This document shows, in pieces, positions 33,761 through 64,000 of a DNA stretch of 64,000 bases. Position 1 is the first letter of the stretch. Each line of letters opens with the position of its first letter. Under the pieces are notes generated by a model, which searched no databases, had not been told where the DNA came from, and saw only the letters and a list, made by a program, of their open reading frames with translations. Both the position numbers and the translations under genes were made by a program. This DNA is from Posidonia oceanica (taxonomy: Eukaryota > Streptophyta > Magnoliopsida > Alismatales > Posidoniaceae), in NCBI GenBank assembly GCA_037176725.1, contig JAZBRS010000075.1, forward strand, positions 73,720,001-73,784,000, written 5' to 3'.

Positions 33761-33825
33761 GATGTGTGGGGACACGAGTGGATCAGATCTTGGAAGTGTC
33801 TAGAAAAATTAGGTATTTATAGCAA

Positions 33826-39756: not shown

Positions 39757-40319
39757 ATTATCTGATCCATGTTGCTGTAGATGCCCCGTTTTGGCACTCC
39801 CTTCATGATAGTGTAATCTATTGCATTAGGCCACCTCTAGAAGCTCTTTTCCCAGCTCAAGTACTCTCACCAAACTTATTGACACCTATCCCTGTGATCG
39901 CGAGGTCAAAATTAGCAAGTTTCCATTTGAGTGTGTTGGACGCTGGCTAGTCTAGCGTCCAACGTTGGACGCTGTGAACCATAGCGTCCAACAACAGCTT
40001 TCATTTGAGTGTGTTGGACGCTGGCTAGTTCAACGTTGGACGCTGTGACGCATAGCGTCCAACAACCTGGTTTTCAGTTTCCCTAAACTTGCCATATTTG
40101 GCTGAAATCAAATTTCGTGTTTTGCCTCCACTAAGTGTCCTTTGACCGGTCAAGGCCTTAATGGGTTTTAATGGACATTAATCAGCCACTTATTGAGGAA
40201 TATTCTTTGATCTTGGCATCTTTGCCTCGGAGTGTCGTTGGACGCTGTAACGGTTGCCGTCCAACGCTTTTGAATCAGGCAAGTTGCTGACTTGTCCTTA
40301 TTTGTTCCACCCTAGCTTC

Positions 40320-40326
40320 TATAAAA
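40320..40326 (+). promoter_or_regulatory. TATA box of element B 5' LTR
   Basis: TATAAAA in TTCTATAAAAGCAG, shared by all family-B LTR copies in the window. Confidence 0.78.
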
Positions 40327-40672
40327 GCAGAGGTACCCCCACTAGGAGGAAAGAGGGGAGAGATCTGGGAGGGACTTAGAAGTGATTTTCAAGAGAGAAA
40401 CACAATTCTGAGAAGAAGTAGCAAGAGCAAGTAGAAAATGTGTTTTGAGCTCAAATCTTGAGAGAAGAGGTGGAGAAAGAGTTTGGTGGGAGCTTGAGTC
40501 CTCCTCCGTCATTCGTGACACCACATCAACCCCACTTGCATTCCTTGCATAGACAAAAGGGGGCTTTCTCTAGTTTTCCTTTTCTTTTCACATCATATGT
40601 TTAATTTCGTAGTATAGTGAAGCATTTCATTTCATATATTGTTGTAGCTAGGCATAGTCATACTTAGTTACA

Positions 40673-40700
40673 ACCGGGGGGATAAAACCCCTCGGGTAAG
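40673..40700 (+). other. Leader hairpin followed by splice-donor-like GTAAGT, element B
   Basis: ACCGGGGG and CCCCTCGGGT pair around a short loop and are followed at once by GTAAGT. The same pair of features is at 33183-33210 (GTACGT) and, on the minus strand, at 37462-37490 (GTAAGT). Confidence 0.6.
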
Positions 40701-41045
40701 TACCCCTCCTTTCATTTTATGTTCATTTTCAATTTGTTTTGAATTATATACTACACGTTGTTAATCCGCATCTTTAAAATTTGCTTTGCAAGGAAAAGAA
40801 GAAGAAGAAGAAACTCATCAAGTACGGGCACCCTTAGGCAATGCTAGCGTTGTCCCAAGGTAGCTGAACCCGTAACCACACTTCATCTCTCTAAAGGTGT
40901 CTCGAGGGCCGACGAAAGTGAGCCGAGAGTGGCGATGACACCAATTCTGTCACCTGTGGAGTGACGGAGTTGGATACAAAAAAGGGGCAATAAGGAAGCA
41001 CTAAATAGACACAACAAGCTTCTCCTCCAAAACCCCATATCCACA

Positions 41046-43070
41046 GACGGCTAAAAGTGCCCCCATGCTAGGTGAGTGATCTCTTCTTCTTCTTTCTTTC
41101 CCTTTGCAATCCTTCTTTCACTTTTGCGGATTTTTTTTTTTTCGAGGTCGTGGCGAAATTCCTCATAGTGTTTTGAGGCACCACGACCTTCTTAGTATTT
41201 GTTCTTTAATTATGTACTAAAAAGCATGCTTCTACCTCTTATTTAAATAAGTCTGGTCTGTCAGTGCGTTGAAAGTTGTGCTGGGCAGTGTCCAACATAG
41301 GATGCAGCCTATTCCAGCGTCTTACGCCTCTGGCCAGTTTTCTGTTTTCTTTTGCAATTTCTTCTATTAGTTTTTTTTTATGTAGAAAAAACTATGCAAC
41401 CACCCCTTTCTTTTATTTTGATTCTCGGGAATAAAGGGGTGTTTGAGTAAAAAAAAAAGAAAAAAAAAATCTCTTGTTTTTGTTTTCTAAAAAAAAAATA
41501 TCTCCTGTCTGTGTGTTGGACGCTAATAGGCCTTGCGTCTTATACCTCTGGACAGGATTCTTTTTAAATTCTTTCTTTGTTTTCTTTTTATAACTGACCC
41601 AAGGAATGAGGTGTGAGGTGATCGGCTTTGCCGTAGGGACCGGGGCCTTAGTACTTCAGTGCTTTTCGAAAATCCAAATAAAAATCAAGTTTTCCTTGTG
41701 ACTTGCATGGCCCTTAATTGGGAACTAATTTGATTGTGTCTCTTCTTGGATTACACAAAATAACCACTTAAATCTTGAGCACCTCTGTTGCAAAGGGCTT
41801 AAGAGAGGTGTTTGTGTTGTCACTTGCTTTCACAAGGGGCACTCTTCCTTCCCTTGCTCTGTGTGAAAGTAAGTTAGAATCCCAAGTCTAGATTTATATT
41901 CCATCCCCCCCTTCGGTGGTTTGTTTATCTTGTTTGTTATTGTATTAATACGAGAGAGACCCGACTAATTCTGAGTACGCTGGGCTCTACCTCTACGGGG
42001 TAGGGACCTAAGTGTGCTCAGGCTCCCTAAAAATTCTTAGGAGTTGAGATAGGGGCAGTACCAAAGAAGAAGAACATTTTGTCCTGTTTGTGAGGATCCA
42101 TAAATAACCCATGAAGGCAAGCCATACCCAAGCTTTAAGGAATCCTGAGAGTCATGCAGGTTTAAAACACTAATAACAAGGCGAAATCCAAAAATCAAAT
42201 TTTTAATCGCTCTTTGAAAGTGTTTCTATGTAGCTCTCTGTTACAGGGTGTTGGACGCTATACCTATCTGCGTCCTACATTGGATGCTGGAACACAGCAC
42301 GTCTAACACATTGTCTGTTTATTCCTTTTATTGCTTGATCATTTGGTGGAATTGTTGGATGCTACAGGATGAATGTTTGAACAAGGGTTATAAACAAGTC
42401 ATCTAAACTCTATCTTGAGTCTTTTTTTTTAGATACTTGTAGTAGGTTGTAAAGAACTTTTGTAAGTCATATTGCTTTTCTTTCTTTTGTCTATCAAAGT
42501 GTATGAGTTGTAATATTTTTTCCTTTTATTAGCAAAAAAAAGAAAAAGAGAGAAAGAGAAAAAGAAAAAGAAAAAGAAAAGCAAAAGGAAAAACGAGAAG
42601 AGAAAAAAAAGAAAAAAAAAAGAAAAGGGAAAAGTCCTTGTATGGTCCTGTGATCCTCAAGAGCACAGGGATTTTGTCCATTAAGAAAAATATCTCGGAG
42701 GAACAATTGGCGGCACAAAGACCAGTTGAGCAGATAGCCTGAAGTGTTGGACGGTTGTGTTGTCAGCGTCCAACGTAGGACGCCATCACTTCCAGCGTCC
42801 TACACTGCAATTTTAATTCAGAGCCAATCAGCGCAATAATCGTTTGCCATTTGCCAAGATTATATCTCGAAATACAAGGAGGGCGTTCCAGGGAGTTGTG
42901 GTAGTCATTTCTGCATAATCAAGCACTGATTGCATTGGTTAAGCCAACCAACAGAAGACAGGAGTGTTGGACGCTACTGCAGCTTGCGTCATACAGTGGA
43001 TGCTGCGGTTGTCTGCGTCCTACACTTGCTGTAACAGAACTTAAGCAGAAACAAGAGAAGCTGAGCCAAA
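41046..43070 (+). other. 5' leader of element B, no gene seen
   Basis: The leader holds 29-nt palindromes at 41297, 41515, 42250-42307, 42745-42802 and 42966-43023, most as abutting pairs. An A-rich tract lies at 42530-42630. The open frame upstream of 43071 runs through the palindrome pair, so I place the gag start at the first ATG after it. Confidence 0.65.
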
Positions 43071-44268
43071 TGTCTGAATCTGAAAGTGGCTACACAGATA
43101 CAGATAGCATGCCCGAGGAGGAACCCATCATGCGGTTATTCGATCCAACCATTGGAAAAGAACTGGATCCTAACTCAGCCCGATATCAAGTATTATGCCG
43201 CTTCCTTTACAATGACAACAACCATCCTGGTTCATTAAATCAAGAGGATCTCTATCAAGGCCAACACCTCCCTGGTAAAAGATTGCGAAGGTCTGCTGCA
43301 GGCCACGTCCCTGAAAATTTGCACCAAAGTCAAAACGGGATTGCGCCGTCAGACACCGAACACCAGGGGCAGGAAAATAACTCGCTAAGAGGATTCCAAG
43401 AAAGGTCGAATCCTCTATTCGTTGAACAGCCACAGCAGCAGCCGCATGGCAAGGGAGCCGATCCCTTATTCTCCAACCAACCAGAGCAGAACTACCAGGT
43501 TCCTCTTCAGCCTGGTATAAATATACAAGGAGACAATCAACAGCCGCATGCCAATCAAGTAGCAAATGCTCAAATTCATGGCGGGGTCAGCAATTTAGCA
43601 GAAATGAGGAAGGTTTTAAATTCCTTAGGGGTTCAGATACAAGCTCCCCCAACTTTTGACATGGGCAAATTCCCACCATTTCAGCTTCCACCTGGCTTCA
43701 AGTATTCAAAAACGCCAAAGTTTGATGGGACCACCAACCCACAAACCCACATCATCCGGTTTCAAATGGAGTCGGCTCCGTACTTTCATGACTTGGGTTT
43801 CATCATTCACCTTTTCTTCTATTCATTGGAAGGCGAACCCAAGGAATGGTTCCTTACCCTTTCCGGAGACGACCTCAGCAGCTTCAACAAGATCAAGGAG
43901 TGCTTCTTGACTAAATATCAGCACAAGATCGAGTCAAAGCCAACCTTTCATTACTTGAGCAGAGAGACCATGAAGCCGGGCGAAGAATGGATCACTTTTG
44001 CAAATAGATGGCGAGAAATGGCTACCAAATCAGGCCTAGACATCCCAGAAAGACAAGTCATCCAGATGTTGATTGCAATGCTACTTGCCAAAGTACCCAG
44101 GAAAGAAAGCAAAAAAAAAGTTAGAAAGGAAGGCAGCAAAGAAGCTGTTCATGTGCAAGGAAAAAGAAAGATAGTGGAAAAGACAACAGCAAAGAAGCTG
44201 TCCAAGAGTCAAAAACTGAAAAACTGGGGAATACTAAGCGCAGTAGGTGTTGACACCCTATTTTGACA
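43071..44268 (+). pseudogene. gag of element B, 3' end interrupted by a solo LTR
   Basis: The frame runs from MSESESGYTDTDSMPEEEP through a Gln/Pro-rich region to NLAEMRKVLNSLGV and the gag core (FPPFQLPPGFKYSKTPKFDG, FQMESAPYFHDLGFIIHLFF, FLTKYQHKIESKPTFHYLSR, ITFANRWREMATKSG, IPERQVIQMLI). It then leaves homology with element C and ends in a Lys-rich tail. The family-A LTR entered at 44248, a few codons before the original end; the same frame resumes after the LTR and stops at TAG 50124-50126. Apart from that insertion the core has no stop, unlike gag of A and C. The ATG at 42935 is possible but less likely. Confidence 0.87.
44243..44247 (+). repeat. TSD GTAGG (left) of solo LTR
   Basis: GTAGG at 44243-44247 is repeated at 50094-50098 directly after the LTR. 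Confidence 0.88.
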
Positions 44269-44299
44269 GGCTGAATTAATGGATCTCTCAGGCGGCTAG

Positions 44300-44410
44300 G
44301 AAAAACCTAAAACCACACCCTCCCTTTCAACCTAAAACCATCCAAAACTTTAGCCTAAAACCATCCAAAACTTTAGCCTAAAACCATCCAAAACCTTAAC
44401 CTAAAACCAT
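44300..44410 (+). repeat. 24-bp tandem repeat, four copies
   Basis: CCTAAAACCATCCAAAACTT and close variants repeat four times near the start of this LTR. I do not see the expansion in the other family-A copies. Confidence 0.8.
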
Positions 44411-47400
44411 CCAAATCTAGGCCCAAACCCACAGCATTCTCTTCCTCTTTCCCTCAAAACAAGCGCAAACTCAATCTAGGATCACACCCATCTCCCGAAC
44501 CCAAAAACTACCCAAAAACCATAGGAAAACTCACCCTTCCTAACTTAGCAAATCTACCAAAAAGTCCTTAAAATTTCAAACCAAAATCACTCCCAAAAAT
44601 CCTAGAGAACCTAGGTAAAACTACCCTTTTTCTACACCTCAAAACCCTTCCAAAACTTTCTCAAAACCAAACCGAAACCCTGGGAACAACACTAGGAACC
44701 ATAGGCCACACACCCACCAAATTTCACCCCTTTTCAAAACCTCTAAACCCTCCTTTCGCCCAAATTATCCTTTTCTCTCTCCTAGACGATTCTTTTCTCT
44801 CTCCTCTCTCTCTCCTGATTATCCTCCTTCTTTTCACCTCCTTTTCTCCCTCTTTTTTGCCTGACTGTGGGCCCCCCTTGTGCTTCTATCTGTTCTCAAT
44901 CTTATTCCTATTTTTATCATATTTTTACTATTTTCCTTGATTTTTAAAAATTATTTTTTCTCAACTCCTCTCTTTCCTCTTTATTCCTCCATTTCTCTCT
45001 TTTCTTCTTCCTTTCAATTTCCTTTCCTTTTCTCTTACTAAACCCCTAAAAACCCTTAAAAATCCTTCAAAACTCCAAAACAAAAGGAAAACAAATCAAA
45101 ACCCTAAGGAAAATAATTAAAAATATTAAACAAACAATTAAAAATCTAAACCTAACTAAATCTAGCAAAAATGGGAAACCAAGAATGCAACTAAAAAAAT
45201 GCGAAACCAACCAAAAGAAAATGCTGTAAAATCAAGGAAAAAACCAAAAAGCAATCAAAACAAGTCAAAGTAAGAACGTTACTAAAAAACAATCGAAAAC
45301 AATTCCTAAAAAGAAAAGAAAACAATTAAAAAGTACCAAGACAACTAATTAAGGAAAAAAAGAAGAAACCTAACAAATATTAGAAGAACAACTCAAAAAC
45401 CTAATTAAAAAAAAAGAAAAGTAATAATAATAACAAACAATCAAGAATCCAAAAACACCCAACTAAAAACTTAACAAGAAGACCTAACAAAAAAGAAATT
45501 AATTAAAAGAACTCAATAGACAAAAATCAAAAACAAATCAAAAGGACTTAAGCAAAAAAGGATCGAAATTAAAAATCCAAAACCCACTCTAATTAGTTTA
45601 AAAACAAACTTTAAAAAATCCTAATTAACATCCCAGGTACTTAACAAGGAAAACATAATTAGAAAATAACTTAAAAGACTTAACAAACATTTAATCAAAA
45701 TCAAAAACAAATCAAAATAAACAAAACTCTAAACACCCTAATCAAAACTAAAATCCCTTCAAACCTAATTGACTAATCGAAAATAATCATTAAAAAACTT
45801 AATCAAAGTTCCAACTTAAAACACAATCACTCTAAAAAACCCTTCCTATTATTTATTTTATCTTTCTTCCCTTCCTTCCTTTTTTTCTTTTTCTTCTTGG
45901 TCCGGTCCACCTGGCCTCTCTACTCCTCCTTTCTTTCTTTTTTATTTCTTTTTTTTCGCAGGCCCGGCCCACGGCCAACTTCTCTCCTTCCTCCCTTCTT
46001 CTTCCTCTCCCGCCTGTCTCGAATTTCTTTCTCTCCTTTTTCTCTGCAACTCTCTCCTCGGATTGACAGCTCACCCACCTCAGACCTGACCGTCCTTGCG
46101 CGCCGCACGACCTCTGCCCAGGCCGGACCGGCATGCGCCGCCCTCCTCCCGTGCACCTGCAAACACCCTGTCATCACCTCTCCGAGCCATTAATGACAGC
46201 CAGACACCTGCAAACCAGATAGGAATAGAAACCAGTAGCTACTCACTAGAATTCACCCCCCCAAGCACCCAGAACCTCGGACCTTTCTCCCGTGTGCAAC
46301 CCAGAGCAAGAGAGACCCGGAATCCCCTCCTCTTCCGACTGCAATTCAGCATTCTTCTTCGTCTTCTTTTTCATCCGTCTCAGAGCACCCAACACCCAGT
46401 AGAATCCCTCCAATTTCCTCCCCAAATCCACCCAGACTACCACCATTACAGCCACCGATCCAGCAACCAAATCCACTCTGAATCCACCTTCCATTCACCC
46501 AAAATCCAAGCCAGAACCCATCACTCCATCTTCCCAAAATTCCCACCCCTTTAGCTCACAAAACCCCTCCAAACTACAACCAGAGACTCACCTGAACTCC
46601 ACCATCCAAACACACCAGAGCCTTAGCCTTCATCTCCCCCACAGGCCAAGACCTTCACTCCAAACACTTACGACCAACTCTACCAGAAAATCCTTCCAAA
46701 CCCAATCTCCCTCTCCAGCCCTTTCTCAGCCCTCCTAAGCATCCACACACCTCCACCTAACCTCCAGGAGTTCGCCGGTGCCCTCCGGTTGATCCAGAAG
46801 GCAAAGAACAGCCCTACCCACCTCAGGCGATCTACAGAGCACCCATTGAAGCGATTTTCTCCTCCGAACTGCAAAGCTTCGCCCCGAACATCCAGCGAGC
46901 TCCGGAAGACCCCTAGGAGCTGATCCCAACGCTCGCGAGCCGCCGTCGACGTCCACAGCTACCGGACGAGCCTCGCCGCCCTCTGCAGAACAGACCGACG
47001 TTGGGGGAGCACACCAAACGCCGAACCAGGTAACTTTCTACGCCATTAGCTTTAAGACCTCCCCTTCTTGCTTTTCCACCCCTCAAAAGGGGGATCTGCA
47101 ACCACCTTCGCCAGGTCAGCGCCGTCGCTCACCTTCTTCCCCGACGAGCTCGAAGTTCGTCCCGTCGCGCCGAGCTGCAGAACGACCTCCCGTTGGTTGT
47201 CCCAGCTCCGCACGTCCGTCAGGAATGCTCCGGTGGCCTCAGAATGCCACGACGTCGCCGCTCTCGACCGCAGCATCTCCGGATAGCTCTGCAGTACTCC
47301 GACGTCTCCTCCGGCGAGCTTCGAGCCCCGCCGCCGCTCCCCGACGCAGCCCAGACCTCCGCCGAACTCCGAAAAGCATCGCTGCCGCGTCTCCGCCCCT

Positions 47401-47422
47401 CCAGCACCCCCTCTCACCTTCT

Positions 47423-47456
47423 CCGGGCACTGATAGCATTTTGCTACAGTGCCCGG
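47423..47456 (+). other. Bulged hairpin of family-A LTR, best copy
   Basis: CCGGGCACTG pairs perfectly with CAGTGCCCGG, then a one-base bulge, then TAGCA with TGCTA and a TTT loop: 15 base pairs in all. Confidence 0.85.
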
Positions 47457-48257
47457 CTTTTCCTTTGGTTACTGTAGCTTTATTTCTGTTTATTAAGCTA
47501 TTTTGCCATCAAATTGCATATTTGCCTTGCTTTCTTACTTTATTGCTTTCCAGTCCTGTTCTTGTTTATTATTCATTTAATTTCGTATGTTAATCTCATA
47601 AAATTGCATGAAAAAATTAAAAAATCAGTTAATTGCATGTTAGTCCCGCCATAGTGTTTCTCTTCAGTGTTTCCTTTAAATTCCAGTCCTCTTGTTTTAT
47701 ATTATTGCATGTTAGTTCTATTGATATTAATCTGAATTAATACTTATATTTTACCTTGCTATATTGCATTCAGGCCCTCTGTTTCCCAAAAACATTGCAT
47801 AAAAGCCTCTAACTTTTCAAAATCCTTACATTCAGACCCCCATCTATTCAAAATTGCATGTAAGTCCCTAGTTTTTTGAAAAATCATCCCTAAGTCTTTT
47901 CTTGCATTTCGCATGCATTGCATTCATGCATTCTTGCATCTGGCATCTCTTGCACACACTTAAGCATTCTTAGCTCCCATTTACATGGGAGGACCTATTT
48001 TGCACACCCTTAGACCCCTTTTTACACTTAGATCTTATCTTCTCCCCTGTTCTGGCCTCCTGCCTTGAAGTCTGGATATCTTCAGATCCAGCCGTTGGAT
48101 CTTCTCAACTAAGCTACCTGGACGACCCCGGCGGAGCGCTCTTCGGCATGGACAATCAGATTTCAGATCAGGCATCAGATTTCCAAGGTAAGTCCTCTCG
48201 AACTTCGACAGCATCTTTTGCATATCATTCGCATTGCATGGCTTTCACACGTCCTTT

Positions 48258-50126: not shown

Positions 50127-51487
50127 GCTTCAAATCTTCAGCCGACATCTTAGGATAGGGCACCGACTTTCCTTCCACCCACATCCCACACCATACACAT
50201 AAGAGGCAAGGGGCAGATGTCTAGGTCTAGGGATTGTTAGGCGTCAAAGTAAGCCTGAAGCATCCATGGCTCTGAGATTGCACAAGGGACCAAACTGTCA
50301 AGGTTTTCCAACCATGAGGTCTCTTGTTTCCCAACTTCTTGGAAGATTCTTCTTCTCCTACAATAATCCAAAAAAATGATAAAGTCAAAAATCCAAAAAA
50401 AAAAAAAATCCAAAATCCAAAAACAAAAATAAAGTCAAAAAAGGGAATAGAAATAAAGTCAAAATTCCAAAAAAAAAAAGATAAAATCAAAACTCCAAAA
50501 AATGATAAAATCAAAAACCCAAAAAAATAAAGTCAAAAATCCAAAAAATCATAAAACCAAAAATCCAAAATAATAAGCAAAAAGATCAAGAAAGATAAGG
50601 GTAAAATCTACCCAACCAACATCACCTCATGAAACTGATAACAAATCTAGCCGATGACAAAAAATCTAGGGCACTAGCGACTCCGCGTCGCGTTTTGACC
50701 ACTCCTATTCAGGGCGGTCACTTGGTACTCGCTTGCGAGTCGATACCATCTTCATGTAGACAACAAATTTGCGGCCAGATTTATTATCCTCCATCTAAGT
50801 TTATTTCAAGCAATACATGTACATATTTATTATTCTTATCCTTGGACTAGGGGCAGGGGGCACCCTAGATGGTCTAATATCATTTTGTTTAAGTTTCTCT
50901 GCATAAAGCTTCTGTTATATGTTGGATGCAACAGCTTTTTACGTCATATATTGGACGCCACCTGTTCTGGCGTTCAACGCAGCAAAAAAGAAAAAAAATA
51001 AATAAGAGTTGTTGGACGCAGCCTGTTCTAGCGTCATATGTTGGACGCAATCTGTTCTGGCGTTCAACGCAGCAAAAGCAGGAAAAAAAAAAATGAGTTG
51101 CTCGACGCTATCTGTACTGGCGTCCTATGTTAGACGCAGTGACAAGTGCGTCCAACATTTTTCAGCAACTTAAGTTGCTGAACTTCGCTCATGGCCTTCC
51201 AAATCCGCGGACAAGTTGCCAAACCAACTTCTACCAGTTCCAGAGGCTTCTACAAGTTGAAATACACGTGTGGGAGTTGATTTCATATTTTTTGGACCTC
51301 CCGGCCATCCGGAATCACCTATTGTTGTTTACATTAAGTTATTAACTTATTAAAGCGCCAACGGCCGCGGAATTCAGAATTAAAGCTCGCAGAAAATATT
51401 TGTCATTTATAAATCTGAGTTTTCTACGATATCATCGGGGCATACCCCTGAGGTACAAGTGCAAAAAGGGAAAAGAAAGAGCAGCAA
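50127..51487. other. Element B interior between gag and the antisense gene
   Basis: An A-rich tract of TCCAAAAAA-type repeats lies at 50370-50580. Three near-tandem pairs of 29-nt palindromes lie at 50921-50978, 51011-51068 and 51100-51156, separated by A-rich linkers. No sense gene follows gag. Confidence 0.65.
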
Positions 51488-54400
51488 CTATGGGGCACAC
51501 TCTCCCTCGCCCTCGGGAGTTGTAGGAGGCCGAGGTAACTGACGGATGGAAGCACCAGAAGGAGCCCTAGAGGTAGCTCGAGAGCGACGGCTACCTGAAT
51601 GGTGGCTCAACTCAAGCATCGGCGGAGGAGGAATTGACCGTCCTGCAATGGCAGCAGTCTCGAAAGCATGCCTCCGATAATGACTCACCTCACCCTCGAG
51701 CTGTGCAACAATGCCGGCATTACTAGCCAGACTCTGTAGAAAGGACAATCAGAATGTCAAAACAAGAACAAAGGAACAAAATTAGAGCAAGGCCAGTCGT
51801 ACCGTCTCAGCTGCCTCCAGCCGCCTCCTCAACTCGGCAATCTCTGCAGCTGAATCAGTCGCCGGTGGAGGTTGGTGCTGTACAGCAAGCCAGGCAAGCT
51901 CAGCAGCCTTCTTCTTAGCAAGCTGACGAGCAGAGCCTCGGTCACTAACAGCAGTCTGTACCTACCGCTCTAGCTCCTGAACTCGCACATCCCGAAGAGC
52001 AAGCTGGGAAGCCTGGTCACTGGCTCGAAAAGACGGCTCCCTCTGAAGATCATCAATCTGCAAAAGCCGAAGCCATAATTAGAACTGAATCAAGAAATAT
52101 AAAGGGAAAGTATACTGCTATACTTACCATACTCTGAAGGTGGGAAATCTCCCCAGCATGACCCGATGGAGGGACAGAACTAGTCGAAGGCTGCAAAAGC
52201 AAAGAAAGCGTACTTAGCACAATTTTCAAGGCAAACAACTATGCTATAAAAATAAATGCAAACCTGAGAAACAGAGGCTCGCAGACGCTCAACCTCCTCG
52301 GTCAACTCAGCAACGCGCCTAACCAGGTCGCGCTCGTGCTGACTATACTCGTCAGTAGTCCTCAGCTGCAAGGGGCAAGGTCCAAGCAAGTTAACTGTCA
52401 AGAAATTCAGGCAATACAAACATAAAGCTAAATGCTCACCGCTATCTCCATCTGAATCCTGTGAGAGCGGACGGACTCCTGTAGCTTGCCCACAGCCATC
52501 GCTGCCACATTTGTAGCGGTGTCAACCATGGGAAGACCATGAGCTCACTTAATCGGTCATCCAACCACCTGGCCCAAGCCAGCTCGTCCTCAGCAGTCGC
52601 GTCAACAGGAGTGGTGGAGCCGCCACGAACCCAGTCCAGCAACTGTGGACTGTAGGTGTCAACCCAGTGGCGAGCACGACCACCTCCCCCTCATACCTCA
52701 CACCAAACTCGGAACAGGTGGGCCTGAGGCTAAATCTGCTGGCGCCCCAACTACCTAAGTGCCCGGCTGATCTGCTGGAAGTGGTAGTGATTCCGGTAGT
52801 GGAGCCAGATGTCCCGGTCAAAAACTGTCTGGTCCCGAGCTATCTCAGGGACATCCTCGTGCTCCCCCTCGGCGTAAGGACGCCAGGTCACCTGAAAAGC
52901 ATGCATTGAATCAGTAAACCAAATGAAGAATAATATATCAGCAAGGAGCATATTACCTGGGCAGGAACCAGCATCTCAAAGAAGAGACGCCCGACGTAGC
53001 GGTGGCCCATAACTGCCTTAGGTGCATGAACAGCCAGTCCCCAATGCAGTCCACGCGGGAAGGGGATCCCCGCCTCAGGAACCGAAGGTGGGATGGGCCT
53101 CACGAAAGTGAAGTTGTCCCATACCCACATCTGCAAGTAAAAAAGAAAGCCAATCATCAGTCGAGCATGCAGAATAAATAACATTTGAAGCTTAAACAAG
53201 CAAATAAAGCTTATATACCTAAAAGAATGGCAGGTTCCTGCCAAGCTGACGAGAACTACCGTCGGAGAACTTGAAGAGCACAGTGTACAAAAATGCCAAG
53301 CTCGTAGCTCCCCAAGCATACTCCCCTACTCGATCTAAGTCGGCAAGCAGGGCAGGAACACCGCTGAAACCCGCGAGGTGGCATGGCTGAAAAGCAAGTC
53401 TCCAAACAAAACTAGAAGGAAGGCACGGAGCTGCTGATCGACGTCCCCCCAGGCTCCGTCGCCGTCTCTTAGGTGTCCTCGACGCGTTGAACTGCCTAGG
53501 TGGTAACAAAAAGGCTGGGCTCGTACATAACGACCCGTCTCCCCACCAACTCCGCCATCAAAGAGGTGTAGTCGGAGTGTACTGGGCCAGTCAACGGGCG
53601 TCTCGTCACCTGTAGGCCAGTCAACCGGGCCATGTCCTCCAGCGAAAGGACAAACTCGCCAACCCGAGTCACAAAGGAGCTTGTGTGAGGGTGGTAGCGC
53701 TCTGCAGCAGACTCCAAAAGTCCCAACTCATGCTGGAAGAGAGGAATGGATAGGAAATGTCCAAACCCCATCTGCCGAAGCCGCTCGTGCTGGAAAGGCC
53801 CCAACATCTGGTAGCACCTGAGGACCTGACCCTAGTGACAGCGCACGCCGGTGGGAGCCCGACTCTGCAAGAGAAAGAAGAACAGTCAGACAGGGTGCAC
53901 AAAAATAATACTTGAAATTAAATGGAAATATGGTTACCTGTCCCCTAGTCGTCAGTGCAGCTACTGCAAACTCGGCCCGGGCCACATCCCTGCGCGGTGC
54001 CGAAGCCTATACCTCGTCGTACGGTATATGAGCCCGTGTAAAGTCTAGAGGAGCACCAGCGTCGCCCTCTGCCTCCCGTCGAACGAAGTCCTGAATGCTC
54101 ACGTACCAGCCGTCGCCCTCAGCCATCCCGGCAGCAGCAGCGAGGACCGCCTCGGGAACCTCCTCCTCCAACCCCGACTCCTCTGAGTCCTCGCCGAGAG
54201 TGGCTGAAGAATCAGAATCCTCCGAGCCACCAGAGACGCTCGACACCTCGGTCTCCTTGACGCTAGCCTCCTCGGTCTCCACGGCACAAGCTGCCTCCTC
54301 GGGTGCGTCTACCGGTGCCACCACCTCCTCGGTCTCCATGGCACAAGCTGCCGCCTCGGGCACGTCTACCAGTGCCACCACCTCCTCAGTCTCCATGGCA

Positions 54401-54618
54401 CAAGCTACCGCCTCAGGCACATCTACCGATGCCACTACCTCCTCCGGCGTCTCAACTGCCGCCTCCTCTGTCATACCCGGTGCCACCACCTCCTCCGTCA
54501 TCCCGACTGCCTCCGGCACCCTCACCGGAGCCGGCCCAGCCTCGCCGGATGTCGATGGGCCATCCCCCCTCCGTGCCAACTTCTTGGGCCTCATATAGGT
54601 TTTACCAAATCTCGGCAT
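51488..54618 (-). pseudogene. Antisense spliced plant-mobile-domain gene in element B
   Basis: Eight exons fit on the minus strand: 54618-53938, 53864-53219, 53130-52957, 52891-52440, 52365-52264, 52190-52128, 52057-51803 and 51733-51488. All seven introns (65-88 bp) have GT-AG ends with good context such as TTGCAG. Exon 1 starts MPRFGKTYMRPKKLARRG and has an acidic repeat (METEEVVAPVDVPEAA-type, three copies). Exons 2-4 carry PMD-like motifs: MLGPFQHERLRQMGFGHFL, VGEFVLSLEDMARLTGL, ALLADLDRVGEYAWGATSLA, MWVWDNFTFVRPIP. Exons 5-8 encode a coiled-coil-like tail. Stops (for example after exon 1 residues HIPYDEV, at exon 2 residue C-H, and at the end of exon 2) and a frameshift near 53500 mark decay. 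PMD proteins of plants (MAIN, MAIL1) act in silencing and transcription; the role here is unknown. Confidence 0.82.
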
Positions 54619-54636
54619 AAATTGGAAAAGACCCAA

Positions 54637-55370
54637 TAGAGGTCAAAATGCAATCTGGAATAATGAAGAGGAGGAGAAGAGGGGAAGAAGGCGAGCTCAC
54701 CGGAGTTGGAAGCCGCTGTTCGAGCTCACCGGAATCCGCACTGCCGCCGCTGTCGTGCCCTAGCTCTGGCCATCCAAGCTGCCGATCATCCGAGCCACCC
54801 TGCGCCGGAAGAAGCTCGGAAGCTGAGAAGGAGTCGTCGCCGGAGGGGAAGAGGAAGGGAAGTGGTGAGCCGGAAAAATGGGGAAGAAGGGCGGAGGGGT
54901 CTGTTAAAGACCCCGACGCGTTGGATGCTATCCCTCTTTGCGTCATACGTTGGACGCAGTCAAGAGCGGCGTTCAACACCTCGAGTGACAGTTAGACGTT
55001 GGACACAACCTGTTCTAGCGTCATATGTTGGACGAAGAAGGTTGTAGCGTCCAACACTTCAGAGAAGCTTAAAATGCCGAATCTTGCCAGAAAGCCTCCA
55101 AATTAATTTTTTTCCAATATCAGAGGTTTCTACAAGCTAGAATACACATGGAAATGAGGCTGTCATGATTTTCGAAGAACTCGTAGCACCAACGGGTCAA
55201 CAAAGCGAAGCCAAAGAAGTAACCTTTTGTTTTCCTTGGGCAACCACCTTGGTGTGTTTTGTCTCAGTTTTTCCTTGGGCAACCCCCTCGGCGATGCTTT
55301 AGTTCTGTATTTCCTTGGGCAACCTCCTCGGCGAGTCTTTTAAATTTTAGTTCTATCCCTTTGGCCAACG
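54637..55370. other. Upstream flank of the antisense gene
   Basis: A GC-rich stretch (54640-54900) is followed by two abutting pairs of 29-nt palindromes (54920-54977 and 54998-55055), then three repeats of TTCCTTGGGCAACC...CTCGGCGA type at 55220-55345. No gene is seen. The GC-rich part may be promoter and 5' UTR of the antisense gene. Confidence 0.55.
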
Positions 55371-55379
55371 CCTAAAGGT

Positions 55380-55690
55380 AGATCTTTGAGAGTTTGATAA
55401 ATCCAGCTCAATCCTTAAGTGTTGGACAAATCTAGCTCAAACCTTGAGTGTTGGATAAATCCAGCTTAAACTTTGAGTATTGGATAAATCCAGCTCAATC
55501 CTTAAGTGTTGGACAAATCCAGCTCAAACCTTGAGTATTGGATAAATCCAGCTCAAACCTTGAGTGTTGGATAAATCCAACTCAAATCCTTGAGTGTTGG
55601 ACAAATTCAATCCCTGAGTGTTGGATAGACCCAGCTCATTTTCTCTGAGTGTTGGATGTTTGATCCAGCTCAAGTCTTTTAAGTGTTTTC
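55380..55690. repeat. Tandem TGAGTGTTGGATAAATCCAGC repeat
   Basis: About eight units of roughly 35-38 bp, each with GAGTGTTGGA, then (T/C)AAATCCAGCTCAA. Confidence 0.9.
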
Positions 55691-55719
55691 TGTTCCCCTT
55701 CGGGCAATCCCCTCGGCAA

Positions 55720-56265: not shown

Positions 56266-56453
56266 AAGCCAACGGTATTAGTGAACCCCCTGTTCACTAA
56301 CTCCCGAGTCAGAAGATGATGGTCCCCACCAAGAATGTAGGCAACATTCAATGAAAGGACACTTGATTCTGACGAATAACGCCAACGGTATCAATGAACT
56401 CATCGTTCATTAATTCCGGGTCACGAGATGACGGTCTCTGTCGAGAATGTAGG
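56266..56453. repeat. 113-bp repeat pair, second copy split by the solo LTR
   Basis: GCCAACGGTAT...GAATGTAGGCAACATT... starts at 56268 and again at 56381. The second copy is interrupted at GTAGG by the LTR and resumes at 62449; a diverged third copy begins near 62497. Confidence 0.8.
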
Positions 56454-59400
56454 TGTAGTAATCCTGGTGTTTAGATCGTCCATGCACACTGCCAGAAGTT
56501 CACGTGCACCGATCGGAATCAGGCTCACTATAAGCGGCTATGTCCGAGGAGGAGGGCTCAACTCGAAAATACTTAAAACAGAGGAGAAAAGATAAGAAAA
56601 GAAGAAGATAAGACAATTTGGAGTCGCCACCGTGTCTATTATCGGAAGACAAGGAAAACCAGGGGAAATGCGTGAGCTAACACGCAAACCAAGCAAAGGA
56701 TGCAATGCAAAGCAATGCAAAAGAAAACAAATGCAAATGAATGCAAACGATATGACTCATGCTTAGGATAAGGGCAATATGGTCATTGCAGGCCAAAAAA
56801 CTGGGCAAGGACTCCTGTTACGTGCGGGGAAGGTGTTAGGCACCCCCGACAAGCTCGAGAATCGGTCTTTCAAGGCTTACGCTCGCATACGCAGGGAAAT
56901 GCAGGTTTGAATGCCTAAATGCTAATGAATGCCTGAATGAATGCTCATAGGTGTGCTTTAAGTGGTGGGATGCAATGCAAGAAAGTAAACGTGCAGTCTA
57001 AGTGCTCAGCAACGCTGTCTGTGTTCCGAACCGGGCGAAACCTGGCTCATGAGAACTCCAGGCAGTAAGAATCACAGCCCTATATGCAAATGCAGACGGA
57101 AAAGCAAAACGGCGGTAAAACCAAGCAATGCAGGCGACATGCAAGAGAAAACGGCATAAGACACGCAAAACGAAGCGAGAAACAGAAGCGGCACGCGAAA
57201 CAGTGCAAGAAAACGAGACGGCACGCGAAACGATGCAAGAAAACAAAGTCAGCACGCAAAACGGTGCAAGAAACAAGAACGGCACGCAAAATGGTGCCAA
57301 AGACGAAGCGGCACGCAAAACGGTGCCAAAAAAAGCGAGCACGCGAAACGGTGCCAAAAACTGAGCGGGCACGCAAAACGGTGCCAAAAGCAAAGCGGAG
57401 ACGCGAAATGGTGCCAAAAACAGAGCGGGCACGCGAAACGGTGCCGAAAGCAAAGTGGGCACGCAAAACGGTGCCAAAAACAGAGCCGGCACGCGAAACG
57501 GTGCCGAAAGCAGAGTGGACACGCAAAACGGTGCCAAAAACAGAGCGGACACGCAAAACGGTGCCAAAAGCAAAGCGGGCACGCAAAACGGTGCCAAAGC
57601 AGGTGAAATAAAGCATCGATAAAACCATGCAGATGCAAATGCTATGAAAAAGAGCAGGAGAAGCAAATGGCAGGTAAACAGTGCAAGTGTGAGAACGAGC
57701 GCCATTTAAAGACCACGCAAAATAAGTGTGAAGACCTTCAAAGGGGAAGGGAAACAAGTGGAAGGATTACCATTGTTTTGTACTGTTTCCCACCAAAATG
57801 TCCCACGATATATCTCGCACGCTGCCAAGAGCTCGCGATGCGATCGGATCATGGAAAAGGGGGAAGAAAGTCGTAATTAGTAGTGAATCTAGGGGAAACG
57901 CAACACAAAGCACTGGGAGTACACGAAAAGAGGGAGCAGAGTTGATAGATAAGAAGAGGAAATCCTATTCTACATGCTCGAGAAACCAGAAAGCAAAAAC
58001 AATGCATAGAATGCAAATGGTGTGCAAATGAATGCTGTGCAAGGGTTCAGGAGGACTTACCGTGGAGATCTGAAGCCTGATCTAAGATCTGTTTGGTGCA
58101 TGCTGAAGAGCGCTCCGCCGGGGTCGTACAAGTAGCTTGGTTGAGAAGATCCAACGGCCGGATCTGAAGATATCCCAGCATCAAGGCAGATGGGCCAGAA
58201 CAGGGGAGAAGAATTGATCTAAGTGTACAGGAGGTCCTAAGGGTGTGCACAACAGGTCCTCCCATGTGAATGGGAGCTAGGAATGCTTAAGTGTGTGCAA
58301 GGAATGCCAAATGCAAGAATGCATGAGTGCAATGCATGCAGAATGCAAGAAAGGACTTAGGGATGATCTTTTAGAAAACTAGGACCTTATATGCAATTTT
58401 TGAAAAAGTGGGGGTCTGAATGCAAAGATTTTGAAAAGTTTGGGGCTTTTATGCAAAGTTTTTGAAAATTGGAGGGTCTGAGTGCAATTTTGTAAAATGC
58501 AGGGTTAAAAATGTAATTTTTCAAGATAAACGTGCATCAGGATAAGTTTTGAAATCATATGGGAGATTGGCATGCAATTTTGAAATAAGCAGGGTCTAAA
58601 AGGCAATTTTGCAAGCAAAACAGTGGTCTTAATGGTCTCGGAATGCAAACAGAGGATCTACATGCAATTTTTAAATATGCAGGGTCTAAAATGCAATTTT
58701 ATAAGCAAAAATATGTATTTAAATGATTTTTATAAGCATACAGAGGACCTATGTGCAATTTGTAAAACATGCAGGGTCCGAAATGCAATTTTATAAGCAA
58801 AATATGCATTTAAATGTATGCTGTGCATTAATGAAGGACCTATATGCAAAAACCAGAAAATATGAGGGAAATGATGCACTGCAGTAAGATAAATTGAAAA
58901 ATAAAAACCTAAGTTAACAGATCAGAGGACTAAACTGTAAATAAGGAAAAAAGCAGGGACTGAAAATACAATTTATCAAGTTAAAATTAGAGCATTAAAT
59001 TAGATTATTAACTGGAGGACTAACATGCAATAACAAAGAACTAGAGGACCAGAACATAAAAAAAACACTGAAGAGAAACACTGTGGAAGGACTAACATGC
59101 AATTAATCAACTTTTTAAGTTTTTCATGCAATATCATAAGATTTTAATGCGAAATTAAAAGAACTTTAAACAGAGGCAGGACCAGAATGCAATAAGTTAA
59201 AAAAACAAGGCAGATATGCAATTTATCAACAAAATACCATAGTAAAGGAAAAATAAAGGAACAGTGAAAGCTGCAGTGGCCATGGCACCGTAGCAACTGC
59301 TACCAGCGGCCATGACCGGCGGGAGGGGGCAGTTGGTGAAGCGCTGACTGGTCGGGGATGCTCTTCGGAGGTAGACGGAGCTCGGGCGACGTCCGGCGAG

Positions 59401-62400
59401 CCGCAACAGTACCTGGAGCAGGCCGAAGGAGACGCCGGAGCGTCGCAGACCTGCTCAGAGGCAGTCCAGGCGATCGACGCGACGTCGACACGATCTGAAG
59501 GCACCGGCGTACTCCTAGAGGTCGTGCGGACCTCAGGCACGATTGGCGAGGCGTTCTGCAGCTGGAGCGGCGATCCGAGCTCAGAGCTCGCCGGAGAAGA
59601 AGAAGTTGACGGCGGCGTTGACTCCGGCACAGAGGGAGAGAAAGCCTAATCTAATGGCCGGAAAAGCAAGAGGGAGAAAGAACTAGCCTAGGGACGAAGA
59701 AAGTTACCTGTTTCCGCAGCTGAGTAGTCCCCCCGACGTCGGCTGGTTTTGCAGATACCGGCGGTGATCGTCCGGCTGGTGCAAGCGTCGTCGGCGGCTC
59801 ACAGGTGCTTGGATCAACTCCACGCAGTCCTCCGGAGCTCGCTATATGCTTGGAGCGAAGCTCTGAAGGCCGGAGGGATGAATGATGATTTTGGGTGTAC
59901 TGCTGGTCGCCTGAGGTGGCGGGTGAGGTCTGTTGCTCCTCATGCCAGATGGAGGCTTTCGGCGGACTTCTGGAGGTTAGGTGAAGGGTTCTAGAGGGTT
60001 AAATTGGGCCGTGGGTTGCTGGAAAGGGAGATGGCTGTCGGATGGATTTTCTGATCAGAAGGTGGCTAAGTGTTTGCTGTGGTGGGTTTGGTCTGTGGTG
60101 AGAACTGAGGGTGATGCTTGGGTGGTTTAGGAAGGTGGTGTTTCAGGGAGTTACGGGGTAGATTTTGGGACGAAATGGAGGCCTGTGGTGTTGGGAATTC
60201 TGGAAGGGGTGGTGTTGGGTTCTGTTGTGGATTTTCAGATGATTGAGGGGAAATGCTAGGATGGTTTCGGGCGTGGAAGGAAGGGGAAGGATGTTGGAGG
60301 TTTGGGTGAGATTGGGGGATGAATTTTGAGTGATTTGTTGGGCTGTGAAGGCTAGTTCCAGGTGGAAAGGAAGAGGAGGAAGAGGTCTGATCTCTGGCAG
60401 AGGAAGAGGAGGAGAATTGGGGGCTCTCTTGCTCTCAGGGTGCTCTCTCTCTCATGGTGCTAAAATGGTGCTGGAAGGAGGAGGACGGAGGCTTTAACAG
60501 GGGGCTTGAAGCTGCTGAGCGTGCTTGTGGATTCAAATCCCCACCGGCGCAAGCACTGCAGCTGATGGAGAGGCGGCCGACGAGAAGACGGGCAGTAAAT
60601 GCCCTCCCGGAAGATCCGCTGAGAGGCGAGAGAGGAGAAGCGAGCTGTAGGTGGAGGTGATGGCGAGGGAGAATTTGAGTTTCAAACGAGGGGAGGGAGT
60701 GCTGTTGAGCTGGCCGCGGGAAGAAACAGAAGAAGAAGAAGGAAGAAGAAGAAGGAGGGAAGAGGAGGAGAAGTGCTGGCGTGCCGGGCCTGCACGGAAA
60801 TGGAAAAAAAAAAGAAAGAAAAAAGAAAATAAGGAAGGAGGGGGAAAAGGGCCGAACTGGGCCCAGCAGGAGAAAAAAGGAAACAAAATAGAAAGAAAGG
60901 GTGGAATGGAAGGAAAGGGAAGAGGAAGAGAAAGAAGAAAGAAATAAAATTGATAAAAATAAAATAAAAATAGAAAAAGCTTTTAGAGTGATTGTGTTTT
61001 AAATTAGGACTTTGATTAAGCTTTTTAACGATTGTTTTTGGTTAATTAATTAGGTTTAGAGAGATTTTAGTTTTGATTAGGATTTTCTTTGCTTTTGATT
61101 TGTTTTTAATTTTGATTAAATGTTTGTTAAGTCTCTTAAGTTGTCTTTTAATCATGTTTTTCTTGTTAAGTACTTGGGATGTTAATTAGGATTTTTAAAG
61201 TTTGTTTTTAAATCAATTAGAGTGAGTTTTAGATTTTTGACTTTGGTCTTTTTTCCTTAAGTCTTTTTTGATTTGCTTTTGATTTTTGTTTGTTAAGTTC
61301 TTTTAATGTATATTTTTTTTAGTTAAGTTTTCTTGTTGAGTTCTTAATTAAGTGTTTTTAAATTCTGATTGTTTTGTTTTTCCTTTTAGTTAGGTTTTTG
61401 AATTATTCTTTTTAGATTTGTTAAGTTAGGTTTCTCTTTTTCTTAATTAGTTGCCTTGTCATTTTTTAATCGTTTTCTTTTACTTTTAGGAATTGTTTTT
61501 TATTATTTTTTAGTTGGGTTTTTACTTTTGTTTGTTTTGGTTACATTTTAGTTTTTCTTGATTTTATAGCATTTTGTTTTGGTTTGTTTTACATTTTTTA
61601 AGTTGCATTCTTGATTTTCCATTTTGGCTAGATTTAGTTAGGTTTAAGTTTTTAACTATTTGCTTAATGTTTTTAATTATTTATTTTAGGGTTTTGGTTT
61701 GTTTCCCCCTTGTTTTAGTTGTTTTGAAAGTTTTTAAGGGTTTTTTAAGGATTTAGTAAGAGAAAGAAAAAGGAAATTAAAAGGAAGAAGAAAAGGGAGA
61801 AATGGAGGAATAAATAGGAAAGAGAGGAGTTGGAAGAAAATAATTTTTTTGAAGGTCAAAGAAAATGCTAAAAATAAGATAAAAATAGGAATAAGATTGA
61901 GAAGAGATAGAAGCACAAGGGTGGCCCACAGCCAGGCAAGAAAAAGAGAGAGAAGGGGGTGAAAAGAAGGAGGATAATCAGGAGAGAGAGAGAGAGGAGA
62001 GAGAAAAGAATAATCTAGGAGAGAGAAAAGGATAATTTGGGTAAATGGAGGGTTTAGAGGTTTTGAAAATGAGTGAAAATTGACGAATGTGTAGCCTAGG
62101 GTCTCTAGTGTTGATCCTAGGGTTTTGGTTTGGTTTTGAGAATGTTTTGGAAGGGTTTTGAGGTGTAGAAAAAGGATAGTTTTACCTAGGTTTTCTATGC
62201 TTTTTTGGAGTGGTTTTAGGTTGGAAATTTCTAAGTGTTTGGTTACGTTTGCTAAGTTGAGAATGGTGGGTTTTCCTATGGTTTTTGGATAAGTTTTGGG
62301 TTAGGGAAAGGGGTGTAATCTCAGGTCAAGTTTAGGCTTGTTTTGGAGAGTAGAATGAAGAGGATTGTGTAGTTTTGACCTAAGTTTGGATCCAGAAGTC

Positions 62401-62448
62401 ACCAGAAGATTCCAATTGATTCAAGCCTGTCAAAATGGGGTGTCAACA
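56454..62448 (-). mobile_element. Solo LTR of family A in element B 3' UTR
   Basis: It starts TGTAGTAATCC and ends GGGGTGTCAACA (plus strand), 5995 bp, with TSD GTAGG at 56449-56453 and 62449-62453. Orientation equals element A. It carries the 30-bp array (57150-57605), the TGCAATTTT block (58380-59210), the hairpin (59286-59308), the GC-rich block (59270-60800), the T-rich block and the purine-rich end. It resembles the copy at 1-4454. No internal domains are present. Confidence 0.94.
57150..57605 (-). repeat. 30-bp tandem array, short variant
   Basis: About fifteen units of CACGCAAAACGGTGCCAAAA, a variant in which GTGCAAGAAA has become GTGCCAAAAA. The array is about a third as long as in element A. 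Confidence 0.92.
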
Positions 62449-63167
62449 GTAGGCAACATTAAATGAAAGGACACCTAATTGTAACGAATAGAGCCAACGT
62501 GGTCGGTAGAGAAGATGTCGTTTCCCCTGTTGCCTGGGAGCATCATGGACCTCTCGCTCACCAACCCGCGTATCATGAGACGACGGTCCCCTAGCAGAGT
62601 ATAGGCTACGCTCGAGGAAAGGGCACCTGATCATGACAAATTGCATTCACGCATGTGTCAGTCTGCCTTGGGTGGTGAGAAAAATTCCTGAGCCAACCCA
62701 GTATACAAATTAAAGCCGGCGATAATGGAGGAACCTCATTACGTAGGGTCATGCATTACATATCATGACCCTTTTTTTGCATTCCCGTCAGCACGCATCC
62801 ATGCACAGCGCATTGTATTGCATTCGCATTTGTAATGCATTCACATTAAGCGGTCGTCGGAATCATTAGCTATCCATCCTGTAAGTTTGACCTCACGGGT
62901 AACCCCCGTGGCAGTGTCTTTGGTTTGACCTCACAGGCAAACCCCGTGGCAGTGTCTTTAGTTTGACCCCCGCGGGCCATCTCCGCGGCATGTCGTTAGT
63001 TTGTTCCCCTTGGGCAATCCTCTTGGTAATGTTTATTTAGCCAACCCTCTTTGTGTCCCGTCCAAGCCTGGTGGCAGCAGGCATTGGATTTCATTCAGGA
63101 TCATCAGGTAGCGCCACATGGGGGTATCGTCTCGCCTTGTAAATAGCTTCGTGCCGAAGCCATCTTT
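62449..63167 (+). other. Distal 3' UTR of element B
   Basis: It continues the 113-bp repeat, then holds four repeats of about 44 bp (62885-63030) of the type TTTGACCTCACGGG...CCCGTGGCAGTGTC, each with a short inverted repeat. No gene is seen. Confidence 0.65.
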
Positions 63168-63181
63168 AAGGAGGGGCAATC
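63168..63181 (+). promoter_or_regulatory. Polypurine tract of element B
   Basis: AAGGAGGGGCAATC lies directly before the LTR start TGTAGATACCCC. This shows that the LTR at 63182 is a 3' LTR and that the element interior lies to its left. Confidence 0.85.
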
Positions 63182-64000
63182 TGTAGATACCCCGTTTTGG
63201 CACTCCCTTCATGATAGTGTAGTCTGTTGCATTAGGCCACCTCTAGAAGCTCTTTTCCCAGCTCAAGTACTCTCATCAAACTTATTGACACCTGTCCCTG
63301 TGATCGCGAGGTCAAAATTGGCAAGTTCCCATTTGAGTGTGTTGGACGCTGGCTAGTCTAGCGTCCAATGTTGGACGCTGTGAACCATAGTGTCCAACAA
63401 CAGCTTTCATTTGAGTGTGTTGGACGCTGGCTAGTCCAACGTCCAACGTTGGACACTGTGACGTATAGCGTCCAACAACCTGGTTTTCAGTTTCCCCAAA
63501 CTTGCCATATTTGGCTGAAATCAAATTTCGTACTTTACCTCCACTAAGTGTCCTTTGACCGGCCAAGGCCTTAATGAGTTTTAATGGACATTAATCAACC
63601 ACTTATTGAGGAATATTCTTTGATGTTGGCATCTTTGCCTCGGAGTGTCGTTGGACGCTGGTTGTACTAGCGTCCAACGTTGGATGCTGTAACGGTCGGC
63701 GTCCAACGCTTCTGAATCAGGCAAGTTGCTGACTTGTCCTTATTTGTTCCACCATTGCTTCTATAAAAGCAGGGGTACCCCCAATAGGAGGAAAGTGGGG
63801 AGAGATCTGGGAAGGACTTAGAAGTGATTTTCAAGAGAGAAACACAATTCTGAGAAGAAGTAGTGAGAGCAAGTAGAAAGTGTGTTTTGAGCTCAAATCT
63901 TGAGAGAAGAGGTGGAGAAAGAGTTTGGTGGGAGCTTGAGTCCTCCTCCGTCATCCGTGACACCACATCAACCCCACTTGCATTCCTTGCATAGACAAAA
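63182..64000 (+). mobile_element. 3' LTR of element B, cut by the window end
   Basis: It aligns with 39776 onward with few differences. It keeps three full abutting pairs of 29-nt palindromes (63341-63398, 63419-63476, 63650-63707), where the 5' LTR has lost parts of two. TATAAAA is at 63762-63768. The rest of the LTR and the right TSD lie beyond the window. Confidence 0.9.
63762..63768 (+). promoter_or_regulatory. TATA box of element B 3' LTR
   Basis: TATAAAA in TTCTATAAAAGCAGGGG, as in the 5' LTR. Confidence 0.75.

Follow-up and report, generated by a model that had tools for sequence, protein, structure and literature searches.

A 29-bp palindromic module of fixed geometry in LTR retrotransposons of Posidonia oceanica, probably a site for a dimeric DNA-binding protein

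Palindromic repeated motifs known as RM boxes have been described in Sirevirus elements (Ty1/copia), where they are found in the long terminal repeat (LTR) upstream of the TATA box, with extra copies beside ENV (Bousios 2010, PMC2829016); as far as they are described there, these boxes are CpG-rich, vary in motif between families and were proposed as regulatory sites. Here, a 29-bp palindromic module is described in a window of 64,000 nucleotides of Posidonia oceanica DNA (contig JAZBRS010000075.1, positions 73,720,001 to 73,784,000), a stretch of plant DNA filled by nested LTR retrotransposons, from a genome searched over 2,962,952,704 bases in 80 contigs. The module is present in element B (39776 to past 64000), which has LTRs, a gag-like open reading frame (ORF) and an antisense gene with a PMD domain, and in the LTR of a related element, C. 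The modules are probably DNA-level promoter/enhancer sites of plant LTR retrotransposons, recognised by a dimeric protein.

The RM boxes appear to be the closest known system. As in these, the modules are family-specific palindromes, present in many copies and located in the LTR upstream of TATA, and extra copies lie beside an additional gene (on both PMD flanks in the window, and on the 5' flank in four of four other loci). However, the RM boxes have a CGG-CCG core, whereas the arms of the modules are based on GACGC/GCGTC; the modules are also longer palindromes, with a variable spacer fixed at 9 bases and with abutting pairs of 58 bp, while the short intervening bases of the RM boxes are written as consensus letters in Table 3 of PMC2829016. 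In addition, copies are found in the leader, and the extra gene is an antisense PMD instead of ENV. Because the core signature, the spacer and the pairing differ, the modules are not filed here as RM boxes, although they look alike in how they may work.

Partial likeness is also seen with other systems, to the extent that the cited texts describe them. The VANC targets of VANDAL DNA transposons are short, repeated, fast-evolving motifs in non-coding regions of a transposable element (TE) (PMC5735166, PMC10398659), but they belong to a DNA transposon, are bound by a known TE protein and form arrays of the 9-base YAGTATTAY in one orientation, whereas the modules are palindromic. In Retand elements (Ty3/gypsy), an antisense ORF lies close to the 3' LTR and the 3' region contains tandem repeats (PMC11963269); however, their antisense domain is TRP28 rather than PMD, and the stem "palindrom" occurs in that paper only in the reference list. 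PMD has been reported as an extra domain of Ty3/gypsy elements, including 57% of Ogre elements (PMC6317226; also PMC9289625), although the relevant text of these two papers does not describe flanking palindromic modules. The BII boxes of Tnt1 are likewise LTR-promoter boxes, bound by defence-induced factors (PMC3316501); Tnt1 is a Ty1/copia element, and the likeness is by description, not by box sequence.

Geometry and distribution of the module

The geometry, positions and copy number of the modules, as well as the arm and spacer statistics, are direct observations. With at most 3 mismatches allowed over the 20 fixed arm bases, 19 copies are present in the window and none in 100 dinucleotide shuffles. 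Across the genome, the exact site (10-N9-10) occurs at 25,471 places and its reversed control at 0, while the same arms with a spacer of 0-8 bases occur at 514; in viral contigs, the exact module was found 0 times. The 29-nt palindrome in abutting 58-bp pairs reported in the initial annotation is thus confirmed, on a larger scale than was claimed. For the tally by place, 35 such class-1 29-mers were considered, consisting of 33 of the 39 rows with up to 7 arm mismatches plus 38041 and 51129, which were recognised by eye; the six rows left out were four with 7 mismatches, judged to be chance (12635, 18841, 21670, 53690), and two half-modules (38248, 42354). Five of the 35 are in the C LTR, five in the left LTR of B, nine in the leader, ten around PMD and six in the right LTR, with 0 in 1-28000, 28001-37000, gag and the two nested A-type LTRs. 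The spread beyond LTR duplication that had been noted for the unique 3' region (U3), the leader and both PMD flanks therefore stands, and it extends to C as a separate family. The pair 38277/38306, formerly assigned to B, is a module pair but belongs to the separate minus-strand LTR of C, the pair given at 42745/42774 starts at 42746/42775, and the 28-mer was placed at 51129.

The offset from left to right arm is 19 in 19 of the 22 window arm pairs (up to 2 mismatches per arm, 5-30 bases apart), the remaining three having 9 (twice) and 18 (the 28-mer), and two abutting 29-mers (58 bp) are the usual unit. The same was seen in 20 loci, 9.9-kb stretches picked from the first places listed and all on contig C1: arm pairs with up to 1 mismatch have a spacer of 9 in 85 cases and of 8 in 10, with no other length from 0 to 35, so spacer lengths are not random and the fixed geometry is borne out. 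A spacing of 36-38, seen in 67 arm pairs, fits the outer arms of abutting pairs, and the outward gap is 0 in 40 of the 56 arm pairs with a gap of up to 60. The commonest distances between pair starts are 231 bp (13) and 78 bp (9). A simple satellite origin was tested and did not hold, as the modules are dispersed at recurring places in LTR elements, mostly as pairs 77 bp or more apart, rather than in long head-to-tail arrays. LTR-like sequence with class-1 modules or pairs spaced 202-244 bp was also observed in L004 (4081-5207), L007 (4523-5436) and L016 (4243-5152); in L007 the intervening sequence can hardly be aligned.

In the alignment of the two LTRs of B, two modules are partly deleted in the left one but not in the right (7 bp at 40013 and 29 bp at 40237), so the 58-bp pair is the fuller state, and modules would seem to be gained and lost as 29-bp units. 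Among the 26 spacers of 13 window pairs, 20 of 325 comparisons share at least 6 of 9 bases (3.9 expected, maximum of 12 in 500 shuffles), and CTGTTCT is common to the spacers at 50950, 51011, 51040 and 54998. The window spacers thus fall into related groups and the module copies descend from each other; the earlier claim of a spacer changing at every copy is correct in part for the window, and across homologous copies at one site the core is hypervariable. This descent by duplication, the gain and loss of 29-bp units between LTRs and among copies, and arms that in homologous LTRs evolve about as fast as the other U3 are compatible with a neutral by-product, in which functionless short units would be copied by slippage or template switching in reverse transcription. 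Such an origin is nevertheless improbable, since the arms are alike while the flanks are unrelated (identity between the 13 window pairs of 0.74-0.80 in arms, 0.31-0.32 in spacers and 0.27-0.30 in flanks), the spacer is strict, two arm classes have one geometry, modules keep two fixed TATA registers, and other copies have them at matching positions in the leader and the PMD flanks.

The second arm class, with the half-site YTAGKCGCC and the same 9-base spacer as class 1, was found in the presumed U3 of the LTR of element E. Five class-2 modules are present in the window at up to 3 mismatches, versus 0.08 expected, and the 20 loci plus the window have 44 matches (35 non-redundant), a set that includes likely chance or class-1 matches (window 14411 and 32198, L009 3949, L020 7507). 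The spacer is 9 in 8 of 14 class-2 arm pairs (up to 1 mismatch each, up to 40 apart), the other six being at 18, 36 and 37. B and C share class 1 and E has class 2; the LTR start TGTAGATAYCC and an inverted TTGAC pair are common to E and B, without BLAST similarity of the E LTR to the B or C LTR. Two loci (L002, L004) have E-like LTR starts (77-81% over 317-333 columns) with both arm classes nearby, and the two classes may mix within one lineage.

Promoter position and gene flanks

The 20 loci and the window together have 24 TATA-like sites, and 14 of these have a class-1 module, counted at up to 7 arm mismatches, within the 200 bp upstream. In all 14, the module centres are at -107/-78 or -97/-68 (±1 bp), which gives two registers 10 bp apart; two of these sites are those of both LTRs of B in the window, and family C, 69-76% identical to B in three longer BLAST pieces of the LTR, is in register at -78. 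The 10 sites with no module comprise four in D-type LTRs (L005 2943, L011 5829, L013 2119, window 32818), two on the opposite strand of another site and four further sites. The D LTR of the window (plus strand, about 32751-33645) is similar to the B LTR but has no B-like U3. The inverted pair TTGACN0-4GTCAA, which we take to be W-box-like, occurs four times in the 64 kb (33969, 34126, 37953, 40142; 0.41 expected), always upstream of TATA in B, C or E LTRs.

The antisense gene of B has a PF10536 (PMD) match at 53499-53831 (E 4.3e-9). The pairs at 51011-51068 and 54998-55055, on its two flanks, are 83% identical over exactly 58 bp. Four other loci (L006, L009, L012 and L020) have a B-like PMD with its 5' side, L009 also having a second, cut copy; in each of the four, modules are found 1.0-1.2 kb upstream of the PMD domain, which matches the window. 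These loci being homologous copies, the result speaks for retention and not for independent gain.

Here it is proposed that each 29-mer would consist of two facing half-sites RTTGGACGCWR, with centres 19 bp apart, for a dimeric DNA-binding protein, and that a 58-bp pair would hold two dimers. In U3, the modules would act as activator sites, both close to the promoter and distal to it, and would keep a helical phase with the TATA box; those in the leader and on the PMD flanks would act on both the genomic RNA promoter and the antisense gene. As E keeps the geometry with the other arm class, the specificity of the binder, or the binder itself, may differ between families. Protein binding, the dimer, activation and phase are what we infer from sequence, and between the two options raised at first, a site for a dimeric protein and an RNA hairpin, they correspond to the former, which is supported as a reading. 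The binder is more likely a host factor, because element A carries PMD yet lacks class-1 modules, and because W-box-like pairs are found in the LTRs as well.

Arm pairing, spacer cores and candidate binders

The other option is that the modules would act as RNA hairpins in the genomic or antisense transcript, for packaging, dimerisation, processing or as a source of small interfering RNAs. A full-length transcript would contain the modules of the leader, the PMD flanks and the 3' U3, small RNAs are attracted to palindrome-rich Sirevirus LTR regions according to the text seen of PMC10760457, and single strands fold strongly (78-nt stretches, z -1.94 to -7.68 in six of six chosen pairs), as any palindrome does. 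However, the arms vary independently. With 29 window modules (one LTR copy of each) and shuffled partners, 216 of 290 arm cells pair, versus 214.4 ± 4.0 in the shuffles; a second, independent count gave 82.8% versus 82.0%, with 147 of 500 shuffles as high, and in class-2 arms 195 of 280 cells pair versus 195.3. In 92 non-redundant modules from the 20 loci, a sample chosen for exact arms, the ten arm pairs have z from -1.19 to 1.94, save pair 6 (89 versus 88.1, z 3.36). The half-site in these modules has T2 in 181/184 and A6 in 180/184; position 11 is a purine in 165/184, and the 11/19 positions pair no more than by chance (41 versus 40.4); a purine at position 11 without pairing correlation is predicted by half-site recognition, not by a stem. 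The paired arm change noticed earlier, at 42775, does exist, but paired changes overall are not in clear excess. The arms thus show no convincing covariation, which argues against the hairpin, and neither partner shuffling, pair counting nor the half-site test gives it support. Furthermore, a hairpin needs no fixed TATA distance, and in 37000-64000 none of the modules is covered by an Rfam family at E ≤ 1, so this explanation is considered unlikely.

The spacer core was compared in 13 homologous B LTRs, two from the window and the rest from 11 of the 20 loci, the other nine having no such LTR match. Mean pairwise diversity of the five central spacer bases is 0.392 (0.234-0.539) in first modules and 0.266 (0.158-0.381) in second modules, while in the same LTRs it is 0.090 in arms, 0.098 in other U3 and 0.133 in R-U5 (repeat and unique 5' regions). 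Without CpG columns, the values are 0.306 for the core, 0.058 for arms, 0.089 for U3 and 0.109 for R-U5; the core exceeds U3 and R-U5 (0 of 20,000 permutations each) and the arms are slower than R-U5 (permutation p 0.005). The leader (four copies: core 0.341, arms 0.099, other 0.095) and the PMD 5' flank (five copies: core 0.41, arms 0.102, other 0.17) gave the same pattern, also with 0 of 20,000 permutations, and over the three regions the core is 2.4-4 times more variable than other sequence of the same alignment. As module columns are non-independent and copies are related, the permutation p values are optimistic, and the case for a hypervariable core is better made by its recurrence in all three regions. 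A counterpoint comes from the R-region control in the first alignment, where the 96 columns after TATA have 0.202 versus 0.25 for the seven central spacer bases. At up to 17 module sites, the number of spacer bases by which homologous copies differ is unimodal, with a mean of about 2.2 of 9 (280 pairs) versus about 1.1 of 9 (6,011 control pairs), which fits raised substitution better than replacement; wholesale swapping of spacers between modules was rejected on this basis. Loop-prone replication errors or selection for change are candidate causes of the change in the core.

In U3, 14 of 22 CpG fall in modules, which occupy 174 of 579 bp. Between the two LTRs of B (91.6% identity over 819 columns), the arms have 5 substitutions in 97 positions versus 26 in 643 outside modules, and are thus not protected after insertion. 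CpG decay accounts for 3 of these 5 arm substitutions versus 0 of the 26 outside, which suggests that this copy of B has been methylated.

Instead of a host factor, the binder could be an element-encoded protein (PMD or another antisense product) that would mark copies for activation or relief from silencing in a VANC-like manner, with co-evolving arm classes. The motif is found in non-coding sequence of the element, on either side of the PMD gene, the two arm classes have one geometry, and the spacers diverge fast; in the cited descriptions, VANC targets form tandem repeats that diverge quickly and are not the same in related TEs (PMC5735166, PMC10398659). This origin of the binder has a low probability, given that element A encodes PMD yet has 0 of the 35 class-1 modules, that VANC motifs are in one orientation and the modules palindromic, that CpG decay suggests methylation of this copy, and that DNA binding by PMD is not among what the cited literature, in the text at hand, describes. 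The Arabidopsis DOWN motif CATGCAGTTT, tied to the PMD proteins MAIN/MAIL1 (PMC9899485, as far as cited), is absent from the window and was rejected as a match for the module.

It is very doubtful that the retrotransposons themselves carry a recognition system (PMD protein or a partner) that targets the modules, a system in which the arm class would be a family-specific address changing with the protein and the spacer core would be kept changing since host silencing follows the exact sequence and the binder reads only the arms. To our knowledge, such an arms race has no earlier case in LTR retrotransposons, and none was found in literature searches.

Several results weigh against the preferred reading, DNA-level sites for a dimeric protein. 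The arms do not evolve clearly more slowly than the rest of U3 (0.090 versus 0.098; 0.058 versus 0.089 without CpG, p 0.075), and in the B-C alignment the difference is modest (arms 0.88, other 0.81, spacer 0.70), too weak for this footprint to be taken as proof of arm constraint. The 92 ascertained modules have a weak surplus of paired arms (711 versus about 698 of 920, about 1.8 standard deviations). Since the TATA registers come from homologous copies, their regularity partly reflects common descent. In E, there are two TATA-like candidates (33760, 33821), the lowest module (33824-33848) having its centre 76 bp from the first and directly adjoining the second, so no register is claimed for E. 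Lastly, the leader and PMD 3'-flank modules adjoin no known promoter, and no TATA box was seen on reading the upstream sequence of the antisense PMD gene.

Element context and significance

Table 1. Coordinates of LTRs, genes and modules in the window
Feature	Position	Strand	Remarks
Left LTR of B	39776..41045	+	Starts TGTAGATGCC, ends CATATCCACA (ends read from sequence); TATA at 40320
Right LTR of B	63182..64000	+	Cut by window end; TATA at 63762
LTR of element C, related to B	37116..38463	-	TATA at 37775
LTR (cut) of element E	33646..34898	-	Read from sequence
Gag-like ORF of B	42905..44247	+	Cut by nested solo LTR
Antisense PMD gene of B	51480..54642 (extent approximate)	-	Several reading-frame segments
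Class-1 pair, U3 of left LTR	39935..39992		0 and 0 arm mismatches
Class-1 pair, U3 of left LTR	40013..40063		Shortened by 7-bp deletion (alignment to right LTR)
Inverted W-box-like pair (presumed) TTGACC-GGTCAA, U3 of left LTR	40142..40153		
TATA-proximal class-1 module, left LTR	40237..40265		Single, 29-bp unit lost; centre -69 from TATA
Class-1 pair, leader, degenerate	41268..41325		Found in 3 other copies
Class-1 single module, leader	41515..41543		
Class-1 pair, leader	42250..42307		
Class-1 pair, leader	42746..42803		Second unit with paired T3A change
Class-1 pair, last before gag	42966..43023		
Class-1 pair, 3' side of PMD	50921..50978		
Class-1 pair, 3' side of PMD	51011..51068		
Class-1 pair	51100..51156		Second unit 28 bp
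Class-1 pair, 5' (upstream) side of PMD	54920..54977		
Class-1 pair, 5' side of PMD	54998..55055		
Class-1 pair, U3 of right LTR	63341..63398		
Class-1 pair, U3 of right LTR	63419..63476		
TATA-proximal class-1 pair, right LTR	63650..63707		Centres -98/-69
TATA-proximal class-1 module of C	37839..37867		Centre -78
Class-1 pair, U3 of C	38041..38098		First unit degenerate
Class-1 pair, U3 of C	38277..38334		
Eight class-2 modules TAGTCGCC-N9-GGCGACTA in E	33824..34573		Starts 33824, 33926, 33999, 34084, 34155, 34489, 34521, 34549

Element A occupies 1-28000 on the minus strand, with long direct repeats at both ends, a reverse transcriptase and a PMD gene; its PMD protein is encoded at 9064-10104, on the same strand as its reverse transcriptase and without class-1 modules. 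L008 also has, at 1166-2420 and about 1.2 kb from a B-type LTR, a PMD gene of A type whose protein is 70% identical to the one of A. For element B, no pol was seen in the window. Its gag-like ORF has a weak Retrotrans_gag match (E 0.0022, under the curated cut-off) and 85% protein identity over 346 amino acids in L005 and L019, with no protein relatives at E 0.001 among 2683 candidates. No tRNA genes were found in the window.

Two A-type solo LTRs are nested in B in opposite orientations (about 44248-50093 and 56454-62448), both bordered by a GTAGG target duplication, as read from the sequence. The second is absent from the homologous loci L006, L012 and L020, and in L012 the matches ending at 56453 and 62449 overlap by 5 bases, corresponding to its empty site. 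A-type LTRs have a 30-bp tandem array (22300-23585, 48262-49239, 57162-57598), whose unit holds GGCAC-N8-GTGCC by eye and is perhaps another dyad array. A 29-bp tandem array of TTGAGTGTTGGATAAATCCAGCTCAAACC at 55386-55638 contains an imperfect palindrome and has the same period as the class-1 module. The sole match to a known RNA family, a sub-threshold MIR8024 (28 bits, gathering 57.3) at 55451-55553, falls in an array other than the modules and was rejected.

If bound, the 25,471 exact sites would be enough to shape regulation across the 3-Gb genome, and the module makes a defined short sequence available for finding the protein that switches on these retrotransposons. The combination of frozen arms, a frozen spacer length and a hypervariable core is unusual, and it separates what would bind the arms from what drives the change in the core. 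Moreover, an antisense PMD gene, whose domain is known from host silencing proteins, is linked to shared cis-sites on its flanks.

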